DNA from: Chlorobiota bacterium | GTDB lineage: Bacteria; Bacteroidota; Ignavibacteria; Kapaibacteriales; UBA961 | Length of the DNA: 64,000 nucleotides | Reading direction: 5' to 3' | Assembly: GCA_014191195.1 (NCBI GenBank) | Contig: BJGZ01000005.1 | Span: 125,557 to 189,556, forward strand | Part shown: piece after piece, positions 15,940 through 23,422 of the stretch | How the letters are laid out: each line of letters starts with the position of its first letter | Numbering within the stretch: the stretch's first letter is position 1 | Position numbers and translations under genes: made by a program | The notes under the pieces: generated by a model | The model's database searches: none | What the model saw: only the letters and a program-made list of their open reading frames with translations | What the model was told of the DNA's origin: nothing

Positions 15940-15965
15940 TGAACTTTATCAATGAACTTTATCAT
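15940..15965. repeat. 13-bp direct tandem duplication at the dedA start
   Basis: TGAACTTTATCAA is followed at once by TGAACTTTATCAT (12 of 13 identical). The duplication creates two ATG codons, at 15939 and 15952, in different frames; only the second is in frame with DedA. Confidence 0.8.
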
Positions 15966-16584
15966 GATAGAATCTATCGTTTTGTTTATACAATCATTGC
16001 CTCCAGAAGGAGTATTAATTACTGCTTTATTATTAACCTGTATAGAAAATGTATTTCCGCCATCACCAAGTGATTTTTTACTTGTTTTTTGTGGTACTTT
16101 GATTGGGTTAGGTACGGTTTCTTTTATTCCTTTATTAATAAGTTCTACCATTGGCAGCATAATAGGTTTTGCCATTATGTTTAAAATTGGGGCAAAAATA
16201 GGATTGGCAATAGACAAAAAGCCTAAACTGTGGTTTATTCCACATGAAGCAATTGAAAAAGCTGAAGCTTGGTTTAGAACATATGGCTATATACTTATTA
16301 TTGCAAATCGTTTTTTGTCGGGTACAAGGGCAGTAATATCATTTGTTGCTGGAGCATCGGCAATGAATTTTGTGTATTCGATAATTCTATCAGCCCTTAG
16401 CGCATTAATTTGGAATGGCATTTTAATCTATGCGGGAATGGAATTAGGAAATAATTGGAGATTAGTTTCAGAATATCTTTCAACATATAGCTCTGCCATA
16501 GCGCCAATACTAATTATATGCCTAATAATTGGAATACTTATCTGGCAAATTAGAAAAAGGGGTAACTCATCAAGATCTAAGTAA
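15952..16584 (+). CDS. DedA family membrane protein
   Basis: A 210-residue integral membrane protein of the DedA/VTT family, whose members act in membrane homeostasis and some as undecaprenyl-phosphate or phospholipid flippases. Family signs are the acidic re-entrant motif ENVFPPSPSDFLL near residue 30, the NRFLSGTRAVISFVAGAS stretch with the conserved Gly-x-Arg near 125, and hydrophobic segments at both ends. I use the ATG at 15952; a second in-frame ATG at 15964 is possible. The 3' end overlaps the convergent M61 gene by 15 bp. The 210 bp upstream hold no recognisable gene. Confidence 0.87.
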   Translation: MNFIMIESIVLFIQSLPPEGVLITALLLTCIENVFPPSPSDFLLVFCGTLIGLGTVSFIPLLISSTIGSIIGFAIMFKIGAKIGLAIDKKPKLWFIPHEAIEKAEAWFRTYGYILIIANRFLSGTRAVISFVAGASAMNFVYSIILSALSALIWNGILIYAGMELGNNWRLVSEYLSTYSSAIAPILIICLIIGILIWQIRKRGNSSRSK

Positions 16585-18402
16585 CCAATAATCTAATAGG
16601 TGCTTTTGCTCTGAAGATAAATTATGATTGATAGTCAAACTATATGAATGCTGTTTAATAGGCTTTAAGCTTGTATTGTATATTATTCCATCACTATGTG
16701 CAATAATATCTGCTTTTTTATCAATGCCATTGGCATTCATGCAATCTTGTAATGCTTTTATAGATGATACTCGTACTCCATTTATAGCAATAATTTCATC
16801 ATCTATGCCAATTCCAGCTTCGGCAGAAGGTGTACCTTCTTCAATATCTCTAATAAATAATTTTCCAGACTCCTCCCGAATTCCCCAGCCACAAAAGACA
16901 AATTCAGGTTTTTGGAGGAATGGTCTTAATTCTCCATAAAAATCAAACTGAGATATACTTGCGGAATCGCTCCATTGCAAGCCAAATGCAGAAAATATAT
17001 CATGATAAGGTAATTCATCTTTGCCATTAAGCCAATGGATTAGTTCAGATTGAATGCTTACTTCGCATGAATTTTCTATGATTTCTATGATTTGATTTTC
17101 TGTGAAACCTGTATGAGGATTAATTTTATATAAGGAATACATCTGTTGTAAAGCATGCTCTAATCGTTTATTGCCATTAGATTTAATGATGATAAGCATA
17201 TCTAAAAGCAAAGTAATAATTCCGCCTTTTACATAATAAGAGGGGAATCTATTATTCTGGTCTGGACTCATGGAATAGAGTTTTACCCATGCCAAATAAC
17301 TACTATCTTTTATAGACATAGCAAAGCGTCCAGGAACTCTTGCTAGGCGTCCTAAATGTGACTGAGCTAATATATTCAAATACTCAGATTGTGAGTAAAA
17401 TCCTGCTCTGTACGACAAATAATCATCATAATAAGATGTAAAGCCTTCTGCTAACCAGAGCATTGATGTATAGTTCTCTTTTGTATAATCAAATGGACCT
17501 AATTCAATAGGTCTAATTCTTTTCACATTCCATGTGTGAAAGAATTCATGCACTAATAAAGACATCATTTGTTGAGCAGCAACTTTATCGCTAAATGCAC
17601 TTGGTTCCACTGCGCTAACATTACAACGTAAATGTTCTAGCCCACCTCTTTGGCCTTCTGCTACTAAAAGAAAAAATACATATCTATCATATGGCAAATC
17701 ACCCCAAAATTCCTTTTCTATTAACACTGCTCTTTTTATTTCTTCTAAAAGCCAATTTCCATCAACTGGTATTTTACTAATAATTGCTAATTCGTGAAGT
17801 GAATTGTCTAATGTGAAAGACAATACTTGATGATTCCCAATTTCAATAGGTGAGTCTAAAAGGATATGATAATTTAATGCACCATATATATGATCTGATT
17901 TTGTAGAAACAGGAGACAAAGCTGTTGTTATTTTCGGCCATTGATCTGGATTTCTATTAATGATTACATGGTGGATTTCATCAATTCTATTTTCAACATA
18001 TAATAATGTTCCTACAGGTACAATATATGCATGATTTCGATTTATATGAGATGATCTTACTCCCTTTTCATTTGCATAATATGTATATGAAATTCGTAGA
18101 GATGAGATCCCAATTGTTTCTATGATAAAAGATGACTTTGAATGCCAATGCCATTTAACATGTTCTCCATTCATACCATAAACATTAATATTCCCGAGAT
18201 GCATAATCATATCACGAATCTTATAACTTCCAGGCATCCACACTGGTAAACCAACTGTGATTGATTGTTGATCTATATCATGTATTTCCATAGAAATATC
18301 TACAAGATGTCTAGATGCATGTTCAAAAGACAAAGTATATATAATCTTGGCATTGGTTCCAAGTACATCGATATCTTTTTGTTCTATCTGATAAGAAGTC
18401 AT
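16570..18402 (-). CDS. M61 family (glycyl aminopeptidase-like) metallopeptidase with PDZ domain
   Basis: A 610-residue zinc peptidase. The HExxH motif is His285-Glu-Phe-Phe-His289 within LLVHEFFHTWNVKRIRP, followed by LWLAEGFTSYYDDYLSYRAG, which supplies the third zinc ligand (Glu). The N-terminal beta-sandwich domain (residues 1-200) and a C-terminal PDZ domain (about 500-590, with GTPSAEAGIGIDDEIIAING) match the family layout. The family prefers N-terminal Gly or Ala. Many relatives are exported, but no signal peptide is visible here, so a cytoplasmic location is more likely. It stands alone, convergent with dedA. Confidence 0.92.
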   Translation of the reverse strand: MTSYQIEQKDIDVLGTNAKIIYTLSFEHASRHLVDISMEIHDIDQQSITVGLPVWMPGSYKIRDMIMHLGNINVYGMNGEHVKWHWHSKSSFIIETIGISSLRISYTYYANEKGVRSSHINRNHAYIVPVGTLLYVENRIDEIHHVIINRNPDQWPKITTALSPVSTKSDHIYGALNYHILLDSPIEIGNHQVLSFTLDNSLHELAIISKIPVDGNWLLEEIKRAVLIEKEFWGDLPYDRYVFFLLVAEGQRGGLEHLRCNVSAVEPSAFSDKVAAQQMMSLLVHEFFHTWNVKRIRPIELGPFDYTKENYTSMLWLAEGFTSYYDDYLSYRAGFYSQSEYLNILAQSHLGRLARVPGRFAMSIKDSSYLAWVKLYSMSPDQNNRFPSYYVKGGIITLLLDMLIIIKSNGNKRLEHALQQMYSLYKINPHTGFTENQIIEIIENSCEVSIQSELIHWLNGKDELPYHDIFSAFGLQWSDSASISQFDFYGELRPFLQKPEFVFCGWGIREESGKLFIRDIEEGTPSAEAGIGIDDEIIAINGVRVSSIKALQDCMNANGIDKKADIIAHSDGIIYNTSLKPIKQHSYSLTINHNLSSEQKHLLDYWLLRS

Positions 18403-18489: not shown

Positions 18490-20307
18490 TTACATTTGTT
18501 TGCGCAGTTCTTCGCACCAAGTGCGATGTATTATTCTCCATGCTGCTTTATTTGGAGCATCAGATTTTTGTACAGGACTGGCAGGTGGCACAACTTTGTA
18601 ATCGTCTGGAACAATATAAGGTTCAATAGTTTCATTAGATTCAGCTATAAGTTTTTCAATTTCTGCTGCGTCTAATCTTCTCCATGATCCTGGGTGAAAA
18701 TCCTTAGTAGATAAATGGCCAAGTGTAGTTCTTTCGAATGACAATGTTTCTAGGCCGTATTCTTTTAAGGCAGTACGTAAATCTTTAGGAGTAGATGTTC
18801 TTGCTTGAATTCTTAACCAACAATTTCTAGTATTTGCTCTTTCTAATACTACAGAAACATGCTCTTCTGTTTGAGTGCGAACAAAATCAAGGATTCTATC
18901 AACTTCTTCTATAGATTGAAGTGGTCTGTGAACTTTAATCCGATATGTTTTTGCGATATTTTGTAATTCAATTCCATATGTACGTTTGCAATCAATATCA
19001 TTTGTAAATAGCAACATACCACTAGATGCTATTTCTAAGCATCCTAAGGGGGCAAACCATCCCGTTTTTTGTCTCATCAATCGATAAATAGTCGGAGAAT
19101 TTTGTTCATTAGAACCAGCAAAATGTCTTCCTTTATGGATTGCAATATACATTTTATCTAATTTCTGATTAACTGGGATACCTTTTATCTCGAACATATC
19201 ATAATTAATACGTACACGTGCATTTGGATTTGTAACAATTTCTCCATTTACAGCTACTAAGCCCTCACGAATTGCTCTTAGGCAAATTCTTGGTGAACCA
19301 TAATCACATTTTGAAATAGCTTTTACTAATGTAATCGGACGATTTTCATAATTCTGTCTATAATCATCGCGTCCCTGATAATCATTACTATATCTGGAAT
19401 CGGGATTATGATTTCTGGATCGCATGATACGTTCTCCGCCATATCTACTACCGTCATTTTCACTACGATTTTGATATGGAGGTCTTTGAGGTGCATCGTC
19501 CCTGGTATATCGACGATCATATTGTGGCCTATCACCATAATTAGTTCTAGGAGTATATTGTGGGCGGCCTTCATAAGACTGACGATTTTCTACATTATCT
19601 CGACTATATGTATTTGGTGGCCTATCGTAATTTTGTCTAGGAGCACCTTCTGGGGCCCTATAAGGAGGCCTTGGTTGATACTCTCTTTGAGGAGGTCTTG
19701 AATCGCCATAATTATGTGGTCTATATTGATCTGGAGCTCTATAAGGCCTTGGTTGATATTCTCTTGGAGGCCTTGAATCGCCATAATTATTAGGTCTGTA
19801 TTGATCTGGAGCTCTATAAGGCCTTGGTTGATATTCTCTTCTATCATTATCTCTACTTCCATAGCGATTATCAGAATATCCAGAAGGTCTATTGCTATAA
19901 TTGTTTCTATTGTCATTTCGATTATCGTAACGATTGTCATTTCTACTATCACTTCTACTATCATTTCGATTATCACTTCTACTATCATTCCGATTATCAT
20001 TTCGATTATCGTAACGATTGTCATAATAATTTTGGCGAGGAGGATAATGCCCCGTATTTCTAGGATTATCATTCTCTCTTCTTTGAAACTCTCTAGGTTG
20101 CTCGGATCCTCCATAAGAAGAATTATCTTTTCTATATGGTGTTCTAGGGTGTTTTTCTAGCTCACCCTCTGGTGTAGAAGAAAAATTTGTAGGGATCTCA
20201 TTTACATGCTGAGAATCTGAATTTGAGAAATCAGAATACGATGTTTGACTTCCAGAATCTGCTGTGTCAAAGTTTTGTTCATCCGAATCATTGTGTAGAT
20301 GTTCCAT
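18490..20307 (-). CDS. RsuA/RluB-family pseudouridine-synthase-like protein with long disordered Arg/Asn/Tyr-rich N-terminus and degenerate active site
   Basis: A 605-residue protein. Residues 1 to about 325 are low complexity (Asn, Arg, Asp, Tyr, Pro, Gly, Ser, Gln), with tandem repeats of 4 and about 25 residues, and are surely disordered. Residues about 325-385 form an S4 RNA-binding domain (CLRAIREGLVAVNGEIVTNPNARV), followed by an RsuA-type synthase domain. The catalytic motif GRLDxxSSG of the family reads Gly422-Cys-Leu-Glu425-IASSG, so both the Arg and the catalytic Asp are replaced, although MLLFTND after it is intact. The later EGRNRQVRRM-like motif is also replaced (ARTSTPKDLRTAL). 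Ordinary family members make pseudouridine in rRNA. This one may bind RNA without catalysis. The C-terminus still follows the family pattern (LGHLSTKDFHPGSWRRL). Confidence 0.8.
   Translation of the reverse strand: MEHLHNDSDEQNFDTADSGSQTSYSDFSNSDSQHVNEIPTNFSSTPEGELEKHPRTPYRKDNSSYGGSEQPREFQRRENDNPRNTGHYPPRQNYYDNRYDNRNDNRNDSRSDNRNDSRSDSRNDNRYDNRNDNRNNYSNRPSGYSDNRYGSRDNDRREYQPRPYRAPDQYRPNNYGDSRPPREYQPRPYRAPDQYRPHNYGDSRPPQREYQPRPPYRAPEGAPRQNYDRPPNTYSRDNVENRQSYEGRPQYTPRTNYGDRPQYDRRYTRDDAPQRPPYQNRSENDGSRYGGERIMRSRNHNPDSRYSNDYQGRDDYRQNYENRPITLVKAISKCDYGSPRICLRAIREGLVAVNGEIVTNPNARVRINYDMFEIKGIPVNQKLDKMYIAIHKGRHFAGSNEQNSPTIYRLMRQKTGWFAPLGCLEIASSGMLLFTNDIDCKRTYGIELQNIAKTYRIKVHRPLQSIEEVDRILDFVRTQTEEHVSVVLERANTRNCWLRIQARTSTPKDLRTALKEYGLETLSFERTTLGHLSTKDFHPGSWRRLDAAEIEKLIAESNETIEPYIVPDDYKVVPPASPVQKSDAPNKAAWRIIHRTWCEELRKQM
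19656..19840. repeat. Tandem repeats of 75-78 bp inside the RsuA-like gene
   Basis: Units beginning GGCCTTGGTTGATA on the plus strand recur at 19667, 19745 and 19820, giving periods of 78 and 75 bp. They encode repeats of about 25 residues on the minus strand (REYQPRPYRAPDQYRP and a NYGDSRPP linker). Periods are multiples of three, so the reading frame is kept. Confidence 0.85.
19904..20023. repeat. Short 12-bp-type repeat tract inside the RsuA-like gene
   Basis: A run of ATCATTTCGATT/ATCACTTCTACT-like 12-mers encodes Asp-Asn-Arg-Asn and Asp-Ser-Arg-Ser units on the minus strand. A 20-base block with CGATTATCGTAACGATTGTC occurs at both ends (from about 19918 and 20003), suggesting repeat expansion by slippage or recombination. 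Confidence 0.85.
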
Positions 20308-20446: not shown

Positions 20447-21214
20447 TTATCTAAATAAAGCTTTTACTCTTCTTTGAAATCTAGGCGGTATTGAATGAAA
20501 TATATATGATCTTATTATTTTCAATTTCCAAACAAGATTCTCTGTAGCATTCATTACTCTTCTTTTTGCTAAATCAGGCTTTAGACCTAATTTTGTAATC
20601 GTTTTCAGTGCTTCTTTTTCCCAAACACCTTTAATAACTGTATTGCAAGCAGGTATAAGTTCTTTTGTTGAAGCATAAAATCCATCATAATCATCACTTC
20701 TTACTGTTCCAATTTCTTCGAATTCCCAAGCATTCTCACCCTTGATCAATAGCTTGGACAACAATTCTTTTTTCCAAACCGAAAATACTACTGAGGATCT
20801 GTACACCGAGCCTTTTGAAATTATTCCTATATCATCATTATATGGAATATCTGGCGCAGGTGTCGGGTTTAATCGAAGATAATTAATATCATGTTCGATA
20901 GCCCAGTCAAGCAATTGAACAATTTTATCTGATTGTACATGCCCTGTGAGATATAAATCTTCTATATATAAAAGTACATATTTTTCTGGGATCTGATGTA
21001 AAGCATTTTGCAGACTTTCAGACCAAGAATGATCATTGCCTACACTGATTGAAATTACATCATTAAAATTTGCTTTAATATTGTTCGAAAGCAAATACAC
21101 CTTAAAAGGACAATCTTTCCAAAACTTTCTAAGCAATACTATGCATGAATTCCATAAGTCTTGATATTTATCACACGATACAATTAGCATTGCACATTGT
21201 ATGTCTTTATTCAT
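20447..21214 (-). CDS. Putative glycosyltransferase-like protein of a surface glycan cluster
   Basis: A 255-residue soluble protein. The start (AMLIVSCDKYQDLWNSC), a following NDHSWSESLQNALHQI stretch and YVLLYIEDLYLTG resemble uncharacterised GT-A-fold proteins seen in LPS/capsule loci. The acidic pair in YIEDLY could be the metal-binding DxD-like site. No firm family can be named and the sugar is unknown. It is the last gene on the minus strand after the GT2 fusion, accA and a GT4 gene, separated from the GT4 by 67 bp, and so is probably part of the same glycan cluster. Confidence 0.5.
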   Translation of the reverse strand: MNKDIQCAMLIVSCDKYQDLWNSCIVLLRKFWKDCPFKVYLLSNNIKANFNDVISISVGNDHSWSESLQNALHQIPEKYVLLYIEDLYLTGHVQSDKIVQLLDWAIEHDINYLRLNPTPAPDIPYNDDIGIISKGSVYRSSVVFSVWKKELLSKLLIKGENAWEFEEIGTVRSDDYDGFYASTKELIPACNTVIKGVWEKEALKTITKLGLKPDLAKRRVMNATENLVWKLKIIRSYIFHSIPPRFQRRVKALFR

Positions 21215-21281
21215 AAATTCAGAGACATTGATGTTTGAAAATCGTTACAAAATTAAAAAAAATAAGTAAATACACTGTAAT

Positions 21282-22466
21282 TTATTTGTTTTCATAGATA
21301 TTAAAAGTATTTATAAATCTTAAAAGTTCCTTTTCGTCTATCTGCCAATTATATGTTTCTTTAAAACTGTTCAATCCATTGTTGGACATTTCTTCAATAT
21401 TAGCATGATACATTGTATTGATTAATTCCGAAATTCCTTTTGGTGTCGAGCAGTCCCCATATATACCCGCTTGAGTTTCATCTAATAATCGTTTCATAGG
21501 ATGTAAAGAAGAACTTATAATTGGTTTGCCGCAACTTATATAATCAAATGCCTTATTCGGCAATGTATGATTTCTAAAATCATCGATTGTATAGGGTAGT
21601 ATACCAATATCAGTTTCACTATACAAAGAGCATAAATCCTTGGCTTTGTAAGCATCCAATATATGAATTCTATCTTTACAAGACAAACTATTTACTTTCT
21701 TGATAATATCTCTTTTTGTTTCACCTTCACCTGCTAAAACTAATTGAATATTTTTTATTTGTTGAGCTGCTATATTGAATCCTTCGACAAGCAATTCTAG
21801 GTTTCTTTCTAAAGTAAAATAGCCATGATGTGCAAATACAATTGGAGGAATTCGGCTACCTTTTTTACAAGATGAAAATGCATCAATGTATGGTGTATTA
21901 TGTACAATAGACAATAAATGAGGTGGATAATGATACTCTTTAATAAGCCTATTATTTTGTTCTACACAAACTGTAATTATCCCATGAGCATGCTTAACTG
22001 CATGTTTTTCAATTAATTGTGGAATTGATAATATATGAACAAAGATTCTTCCAATGATATTGGATTTGTATTTTTTCCATTCTTTCATTGCGGCAGGATA
22101 ATGTTCGGCCATATCAATAAGAAGTGGAATATTTTTACCTTTAGAAGCATTTACGCAATTAGACATTAACAATATTTCTCTGCAGATGATTAAATCTGGG
22201 GAAAATTCATATATGCAATTACTTATTGCTTTTGTCCAAAAAGGATTCCCTGGAATTCCTTCATATAAGAAAGATATTTTTGAAAAACCTACCCTATACA
22301 CAGTATAACCATCGATTTCTTCTGTTTGTTTGTTTTCCTTATACCATTTGCAGACTAAAATTACTGTATGTCCAGCTTTTGCTAGAGATTTACATAATTT
22401 TTCTGCTCTAACTTCCTCTGGAAAACGCCCTTTGTGAATATACAATATTGTTTTTGTATCAGCCAT
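21282..22466 (-). CDS. Glycosyltransferase family 4 protein
   Basis: A 394-residue GT-B fold glycosyltransferase. The N-terminal domain starts with ILYIHKGRFPEEVRAEKLCKSL and has a central HAVKHAHGIITVC strand. The C-terminal donor-binding domain shows FAHHGYFTLERNLELLVEGF, VLAGEGE, and a late LPNKAFDYISCGKPIISS, which corresponds to the GT4 nucleotide-sugar-binding EX7E region (here the first Glu is not obvious). It probably adds a hexose during LPS or exopolysaccharide assembly at the inner-membrane face. It starts 2 bp after the accA stop, so it is almost certainly co-transcribed with it. Confidence 0.82.
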   Translation of the reverse strand: MADTKTILYIHKGRFPEEVRAEKLCKSLAKAGHTVILVCKWYKENKQTEEIDGYTVYRVGFSKISFLYEGIPGNPFWTKAISNCIYEFSPDLIICREILLMSNCVNASKGKNIPLLIDMAEHYPAAMKEWKKYKSNIIGRIFVHILSIPQLIEKHAVKHAHGIITVCVEQNNRLIKEYHYPPHLLSIVHNTPYIDAFSSCKKGSRIPPIVFAHHGYFTLERNLELLVEGFNIAAQQIKNIQLVLAGEGETKRDIIKKVNSLSCKDRIHILDAYKAKDLCSLYSETDIGILPYTIDDFRNHTLPNKAFDYISCGKPIISSSLHPMKRLLDETQAGIYGDCSTPKGISELINTMYHANIEEMSNNGLNSFKETYNWQIDEKELLRFINTFNIYENK

Positions 22467-22468
22467 TT

Positions 22469-23422
22469 TTATTCAGTCCATACACCCATATTTGCAAATT
22501 TATCTCTTCTTTGCTTTACTAATAATCGTGATTCAATATGTTGCAATTGATCTAATTCTTCAGTTAAAACATCTCTTAATGTTTCGAATATTTGCAAAGG
22601 AACCCTATGTGCTCCGCCAATAGGTTCTGGAATAATTCTATCGATAATTCCATGCTCTTTTAAATCTGGTGCTGTTAATTTTAACGCTTCAGCAGCCTGC
22701 TCTTTAAAATCCCAACTTCGCCACAAAATACTGGAGCAAGATTCAGGAGCAATAACAGAATACCACGAATTTTCTAGCATTAATATCCTATTTCCTATTC
22801 CTATACCTAGGGCACCACCAGATGCACCTTCACCAATGATACATATAATGATAGGTACTTTAAGGCCAGACATAACCAATAAATTATCTGCAATAGCTTG
22901 AGCTTGTCCTCTTTCTTCGGCTTCTATCCCCGGAAATGCACCAGGGGTATCTAATAAACAAATGATAGGAATATGAAATTTTTCAGCTAAAAGCATCAAT
23001 CGTTTTGCTTTACGATATCCTTCAGGATTAGGCATTCCAAAATTACGATAGACATTAGATTTAGTATCTCTACCCTTTTGATGCCCAATTACCATAACAG
23101 ATTTACCATTAAGTTTGGCAATACCGCCAACTATAGCTGGATCATCTCTAAAACCTCTGTCACCGTGCAATTCTACAAAATCTGTAAAAGTGAAATTGAG
23201 ATAATCCAATGTATATGGTCTATCTGGATGCCTTGCAATTTGTACTCTTTGCCAGCGTGTTAAGCTTGCATAAATATTTATGCGTAATGCTTCTATATGA
23301 GATTCCAATTCCTGAATCTGAGGCTCTAAATCAGTAATATTCGGAAGATTCCGCATCTCTCTAATTTTATTTTCTAATTCAACAATTGGTTTTTCGAATT
23401 CAAGAACGAAGTTTGAAGCCAC
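22469..23422 (-). CDS. accA: Acetyl-CoA carboxylase carboxyltransferase subunit alpha
   Basis: AccA with AccD transfers the carboxyl group from carboxybiotin to acetyl-CoA, the first step of fatty acid synthesis. The 317 residues match the family in length and order: [14 protein letters not shown] at the N-terminus, [75 protein letters not shown], and [12 protein letters not shown]. The start is GTG at 23422, the only start codon that keeps the conserved LEFEKPI. It overlaps the end of the GT2 fusion gene by 23 bp and is followed 2 bp later by a GT4 gene, so it is embedded in a glycan operon. accD is not in the window. Confidence 0.96.

Follow-up and report, generated by a model that had tools for sequence, protein, structure and literature searches.

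The gene at positions 18490..20307 on the minus strand of the window (the whole 64,000-nucleotide stretch of DNA analyzed here) encodes a 605-residue relative of the RsuA/RluB-type rRNA pseudouridine synthases, and it belongs to a clade in which pseudouridine synthesis has been lost, a conclusion as near to certain as sequence evidence allows. The selection acting on the gene, together with its conservation, strongly supports its retention for a non-catalytic function. As far as comparison with relatives can establish such things, common origin, an S4 and synthase fold by homology, catalytic loss, selection, and conserved location may be regarded as shown. For the function itself, we lean toward an RNA-binding pseudoenzyme that would serve as a chaperone or place-holder in large-subunit assembly. 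Neither the fold nor the concept of inactive synthases working as RNA-binding proteins is new in itself; what is apparently new is a bacterial RsuA-type family that spans a lineage, lacks catalytic residues, and carries a long low-complexity arm. Neither a bacterial RsuA-type pseudoenzyme family nor Kapabacteria pseudouridine was found in the open-access literature, subscription papers lying outside the search.

Domain architecture and catalytic motifs

The reading frame runs from an ATG at 20307 to a stop at 18490, as the initial annotation had placed it, and lies in a 2.41-Mb assembly of 29 contigs that is rated 100% complete. The S4 domain, which had been described as kept, matches Pfam PF01479 at residues 339-368 (19204..19293, minus strand) with 24.9 bits, above the Pfam cut-off of 22.8. 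The match to PseudoU_synth_2 (PF00849) falls below its cut-off (22.1 vs 26.8 bits), and that to TIGR00093 falls far below (43.1 vs 109.3 bits). Homology nevertheless extends across both the S4 and the synthase domain of the window protein, with phmmer matching it to the RsuA structure 1ksk at an E value of 3e-7 and the family profile matching the structures of RsuA, RluF, and RluB, with best E values of 2e-26 for RsuA (1ksk) and 1e-25 for RluF (3dh3). Structure prediction from two sequences reached a pLDDT of 35 and is unreliable.

Motif II, at residues 422-425 (19033..19044, minus strand), reads GCLE in place of GRLD, and direct reading of the codons (GGA-TGC-TTA-GAA) bears out what had been annotated at the outset. 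In the alignment to E. coli RluB, Cys423 occupies the position of the base-flipping Arg108 and Glu425 that of the catalytic Asp110. The second motif reported as missing, EGRNRQVRRM, is indeed gone: where RluB has EGRNREVR at residues 190-197 (motif III, EGRNRxVR), the window protein has TSTPKDLR at residues 504-511 (18775..18798, minus strand), with Lys508 in place of RluB Arg194. The Arg that anchors RNA in the S4 domain (RluB Arg17) is replaced by Pro339, and Tyr455 (18943..18945, minus strand), the equivalent of RluB Tyr140, is retained. A sequencing or assembly error as the source of GCLE is ruled out, as independent assemblies carry the same residues, among them the nearest named relative, the Candidatus Kapaibacterium sp. 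MYJ.27 MAG (L007), whose core is 97.5% identical and which places the host among Kapabacteria-type members of Bacteroidota. Across L007 and the other genomes of the same genus, the Cys is present in all and the Glu in all except one, which has Gly.

The extent of the loss is clear from column counts in an alignment of 43 family members and 50 canonical relatives to E. coli RluB. Arg108 and Asp110 occur together in none of the 43, compared with 49 of the 50 canonical proteins. Asp110 is replaced in 39 members, the position holding any of eleven residues across the family (T, E, L, D, S, G, P, R, A, N, or V), and the four members that have Asp all carry Cys in place of Arg108. Arg108 itself is kept in 20/43, the motif III Arg194 in 3/43, and the S4 Arg17 in 24/43; since Arg17 is missing from the other members and is Pro339 in the window protein, RNA binding may be altered or weakened. 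Cores of the family are as basic as canonical ones, at +6.0 vs +5.2 charges per 100 residues. These residues lend strong support to the original suggestion of a protein derived from a pseudouridine synthase that has lost catalysis, and Glu, which that annotation had allowed might prove an active variant, is one among many replacements and not an active variant. The orthologs share with the window protein the motif loss and a long extension, but GCLE itself is not family-wide. In genera g4 and g3 of the window's own family (L015-L017 and L021), the motif reads GCLD, with Arg108 changed to Cys and motif III lost, and the Asp there either survives from the ancestral motif or has been restored from Glu.

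The same genome encodes five other PF00849 proteins, three of which belong to the RsuA type and have their motifs intact: an RluB-like (L004, GRLD...EGRNREVRR), an RluF-like (L003, GRLD...GLNRQIRR), and an RluE-like protein (L005, GRLD...EGKNRQVRK), the latter two placed by the tree with their E. coli counterparts. The window protein is therefore an additional, fourth RsuA-type paralog. The search for an intact RluB/RsuA that had been proposed as a check thus recovers homologs of RluB, RluF, and RluE, so that the canonical chemistry looks covered. Their co-occurrence with the window gene leaves the idea that it replaces a missing RluB unsupported.

Distribution, descent, and selection

A search of 61 genomes from the order to which the window belongs, a lineage of the Kapabacteria type, yielded core orthologs in 47; in one genome (G036), the gene is broken over contigs, with the arm located downstream of accA. 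The other 14 lack the gene, which therefore cannot be essential throughout the order: all eight sampled genomes of family f3 are without it, as are five of the nine from f2 and a single one of the eight from f4. Wider searches, through sets of 197 and 391 genomes from the class and 395 from the phylum, added members in just four genomes, all of them from family f13, a second lineage of the class. In a maximum-likelihood tree of 93 cores, built with the catalytic motif columns removed, all 43 family members fall on one side of a single branch with support of 99/97, separate from all canonical RsuA, RluB, RluE, and RluF proteins, although the tree program warned that the f13 branch is long. Parsimony on this tree requires three changes between Asp and non-Asp. 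The window gene is thus not a lone oddity but part of an order-wide clade. A set of sister-like proteins from outside the order (L095-L100, L107-L114, and L117) was suspected of catalytic loss as well, a suspicion that was rejected, as their GRLD and EGKNR/EGRNR motifs are intact, and they score higher with the canonical profile. In genome G216 of family f2, a short relative lies directly after accA (L137, 1618-3118), apparently without the long N-terminal extension, and this copy is either reduced or decaying.

The core is under purifying selection. Between the window gene and L007, dN/dS is 0.033 for the core and 0.12 for the arm; against the more distant L010, whose core is 77% identical, the values are 0.096 and 0.25, and further pairs within the genus give core values of 0.01-0.04. 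Together with the intact frames, these ratios rule out a pseudogene. The values for the arm (0.12-0.37) are higher than those for the core and indicate that the arm is translated and constrained, albeit less than the core, the constraint being mainly on composition.

The low-complexity arm and the gene neighborhood

Residues 1-324 (19336..20307, minus strand) form a low-complexity extension that is predicted to be disordered and stands out in composition and hydropathy, with approximately 17% Arg, 13% Asn, 11% Asp, 11% Pro, 11% Tyr, and only about 4% hydrophobic residues. Its least hydrophobic 200-residue stretch contains 0.5% ILVMFWC, whereas the runner-up among the window's 44 long frames contains 23.5%. 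Tandem Repeats Finder detects a 75-bp repeat in 2.3 copies (19666..19840, minus strand; a 25-residue unit of the YRAPDQYRPNNYGDSRPPREYQPRP type) and a 12/24/36-bp repeat (19904..20010, minus strand; DNRN/DSRN-type units), the 12-bp unit of which is present in 8.9 copies. The initial annotation had described this region as rich in Arg, Asn, Tyr, and Gly. The low complexity over some 324 residues and the richness in Arg, Asn, and Tyr hold, but the arm is Gly-poor: it is rich in R, N, D, Y, and P, has a net charge of about +2, and has no RG dipeptide within residues 1-324, falling short of an RGG/RG repeat region, and so it differs from the classic RGG type. Condensate formation, which had been associated with such regions, is a candidate property suggested by composition.

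An Arg-rich extension is present in every full-length family member, 86-418 residues long and of very variable make-up, some being rich in G, Q, N, and Y and others short and basic, with charge ranging from near-neutral to strongly basic. Two f13 members (L115 and L126) have the core near the N-terminus and much disordered sequence in a long tail C-terminal to it, the disordered part having largely switched ends. Long extensions are also found on some canonical RluB copies (L123 and L125), and thus the extension alone is not diagnostic of the family.

The conserved upstream neighbor, both across the order and in f13, is accA (22469..23422, minus strand), encoding the acetyl-CoA carboxylase alpha subunit. 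Two genes lie between it and the window gene (20447..22466, minus strand), encoding a 255-residue protein and a 394-residue glycosyltransferase-like protein, and among the loci compared they occur only in genera g1 and g4. The order sugar transferase, accA, optional genes, and then the family gene recurs throughout the order and at those f13 loci with a known upstream flank, providing independent support for the membership of f13 in the family. Downstream, 87 bp away, is a gene for a 610-residue protein (16570..18402, minus strand) that is presumably an M61-type peptidase with a PDZ domain; it is common to near relatives only and is not a conserved neighbor. At the loci where the family gene is missing, the neighbors after accA differ, with no common substitute. 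Judging by sequence appearance, a NUDIX-like hydrolase often follows the family gene (L048, L051, L056, L132, and L134), in f13 a TruA-like tRNA pseudouridine synthase comes next after the NUDIX-like gene, and a gene for a DedA-like membrane protein is repeatedly found near the accA block (15952-16584 in the window; L044, L052-L054, and L142).

Proposed function and its alternatives

For the origin of the family, we envisage an early duplication of an RsuA/RluB-type rRNA pseudouridine synthase in this lineage, with one copy placed downstream of accA. Loss of the Asp nucleophile, of the motif III Arg and, in many members, of the base-flipping Arg would have abolished uridine isomerization, and the protein would have been kept for RNA binding. 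The S4 domain and basic cleft may hold a structured RNA, most likely a segment of 23S rRNA near the peptidyl transferase center or its precursor, and the Arg/Tyr-rich arm may contribute RNA contacts of low specificity and possibly promote multivalent clustering; the protein would then act as a chaperone or place-holder in large-subunit assembly and not as a pseudouridine writer. An S4 domain joined to a basic synthase fold points most naturally to RNA binding, and a role in assembly or RNA folding is favored in view of the descent from an rRNA enzyme and of the inactive synthases that perform such roles elsewhere. The RNA-binding scaffold or chaperone proposed initially would fit the retained S4 domain, the basic core, and the conserved Tyr. 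Several observations count against this reading: the gene order ties the gene to accA and sugar transferases and not to ribosome genes, the arm of the window protein is almost uncharged overall, its S4 anchoring Arg has given way to Pro, and 14 of the 61 order genomes lack the gene.

The same gene order bears on a different role, with a target outside the ribosome: the protein would be a regulator that binds RNA or a scaffold for condensates, for instance an mRNA-binding protein linked to the neighboring accA or a stress-granule-like organizer driven by the Arg/Tyr-rich arm. The position downstream of accA is conserved across deep divergences, the arms are very long in most families, and that of the window protein is rich in Arg and Tyr and almost devoid of aliphatic residues. 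However, old operon inertia may alone explain the gene order, and arms that differ so widely in length (86-418 residues) and in charge (near-neutral to strongly basic) fit poorly with such a role, which we consider unlikely, if worth serious attention. That a pseudouridine synthase had become a non-catalytic, arm-bearing RNA scaffold, condensate organizer, or accA-linked regulator already before the divergence of the two lineages in the class is, in our estimate, rather doubtful.

Besides what has been lost, the family has residues of its own. Lys515 and Glu520 (18748..18765, minus strand) are invariant in all 43 members, compared with 2% and 42% of canonical proteins, respectively, while Lys458 is found in 98% vs 32% and Arg494 in 86% vs 8%. 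Conservation of 86-100% at positions where these residues are mostly rare in canonical proteins might reflect a new enzymatic or protein-binding function built on the old fold, but the four residues may merely stabilize a changed helix, and the neighboring genes suggest no substrate or partner, making this an improbable explanation. A synthase that remains active through altered chemistry, using Glu as the nucleophile or the retained Tyr, is very improbable. The Tyr140 equivalent is kept in 39/43 members, Tyr140 of RluB is able to attack the base in a trapped complex, with Y140F retaining about 3% activity (PMC3919597), and two genera keep the Asp as GCLD. Against this stand the free variation at the Asp position, which admits even Pro, Gly, and Leu, the lack of the Arg in the Asp-bearing members, the loss of motif III throughout the family, and the inactivity of RluB R108A (0.6% activity) and of Asp mutants of RsuA and other synthases (PMC3919597). 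A decaying, functionless duplicate heading for loss would account for the 14 order genomes without the gene and for the short copy in G216, but it is barely credible given the intact frames seen in this genus and in many families, a core dN/dS of 0.01-0.10 (which contradicts it for the window's genus), and family-specific invariant residues.

Returning to the favored reading of an RNA-binding pseudoenzyme in large-subunit assembly, several known systems offer points of comparison. The family resembles RsuA, RluB, RluE, and RluF (TIGR00093) in the order of its S4 and synthase domains, in a core that is alignable throughout, and in its conserved Tyr, TND, and GxW elements; it differs in forming a single clade of its own that lacks the catalytic Asp and the base-flipping and motif III Arg in most members and bears a long Arg-rich extension. 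We know of no large low-complexity arm on RPUSD3 or TRUB2, which, like the family, are paralogs of active synthases retained without detectable activity, but which belong to other synthase families (RluA and TruB, respectively) and are mitochondrial, whereas the family described here is bacterial and RsuA-type. Human RPUSD3 has Gly in place of the Asp and no detectable activity, and both RPUSD3 and TRUB2 are linked to assembly of the mitochondrial large subunit (PMC12716993). Catalytically inactive E. coli TruB acts as a tRNA chaperone (PMC11301382), and RlmB and RlmKL have functions in large-subunit assembly that are independent of modification (PMC11194073); these proteins share with the proposed function a role in RNA folding or assembly independent of catalysis, but they retain active sites and serve in both capacities. 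Against the favored reading, growth of an E. coli strain that lacks 10 modification enzymes was not significantly changed by expression of RluB, RluE, or RluF (PMC11194073).

Catalysis-independent roles are hard to separate from modification, as enzymes usually do both, and a natural family that has been stripped of the chemistry while the protein was kept isolates such a role. The presence of intact paralogs in the same genomes makes the non-chemical role of the fold directly testable, and the family would extend the theme of RPUSD3 and TRUB2 to bacteria and to RsuA-type proteins. There is also a practical implication for genome annotation, as naive automatic annotation would label the family members pseudouridine synthases.

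Independently of this family, the canonical RluB ortholog of family f6 is degenerating (L180, L184, L178, L181, and L177, from genomes G018, G040, G045, G027, and G034). Motif II reads GRLE in two of these, motif III is present as the variants GRDRLLHR, GQDRFLHR, GHDRLLHR, and GGDRLLHR, and G034 keeps GRLD together with EGRNRLIHR. By its motifs, RluB of f6 appears to represent a second, parallel loss of the catalytic motifs.
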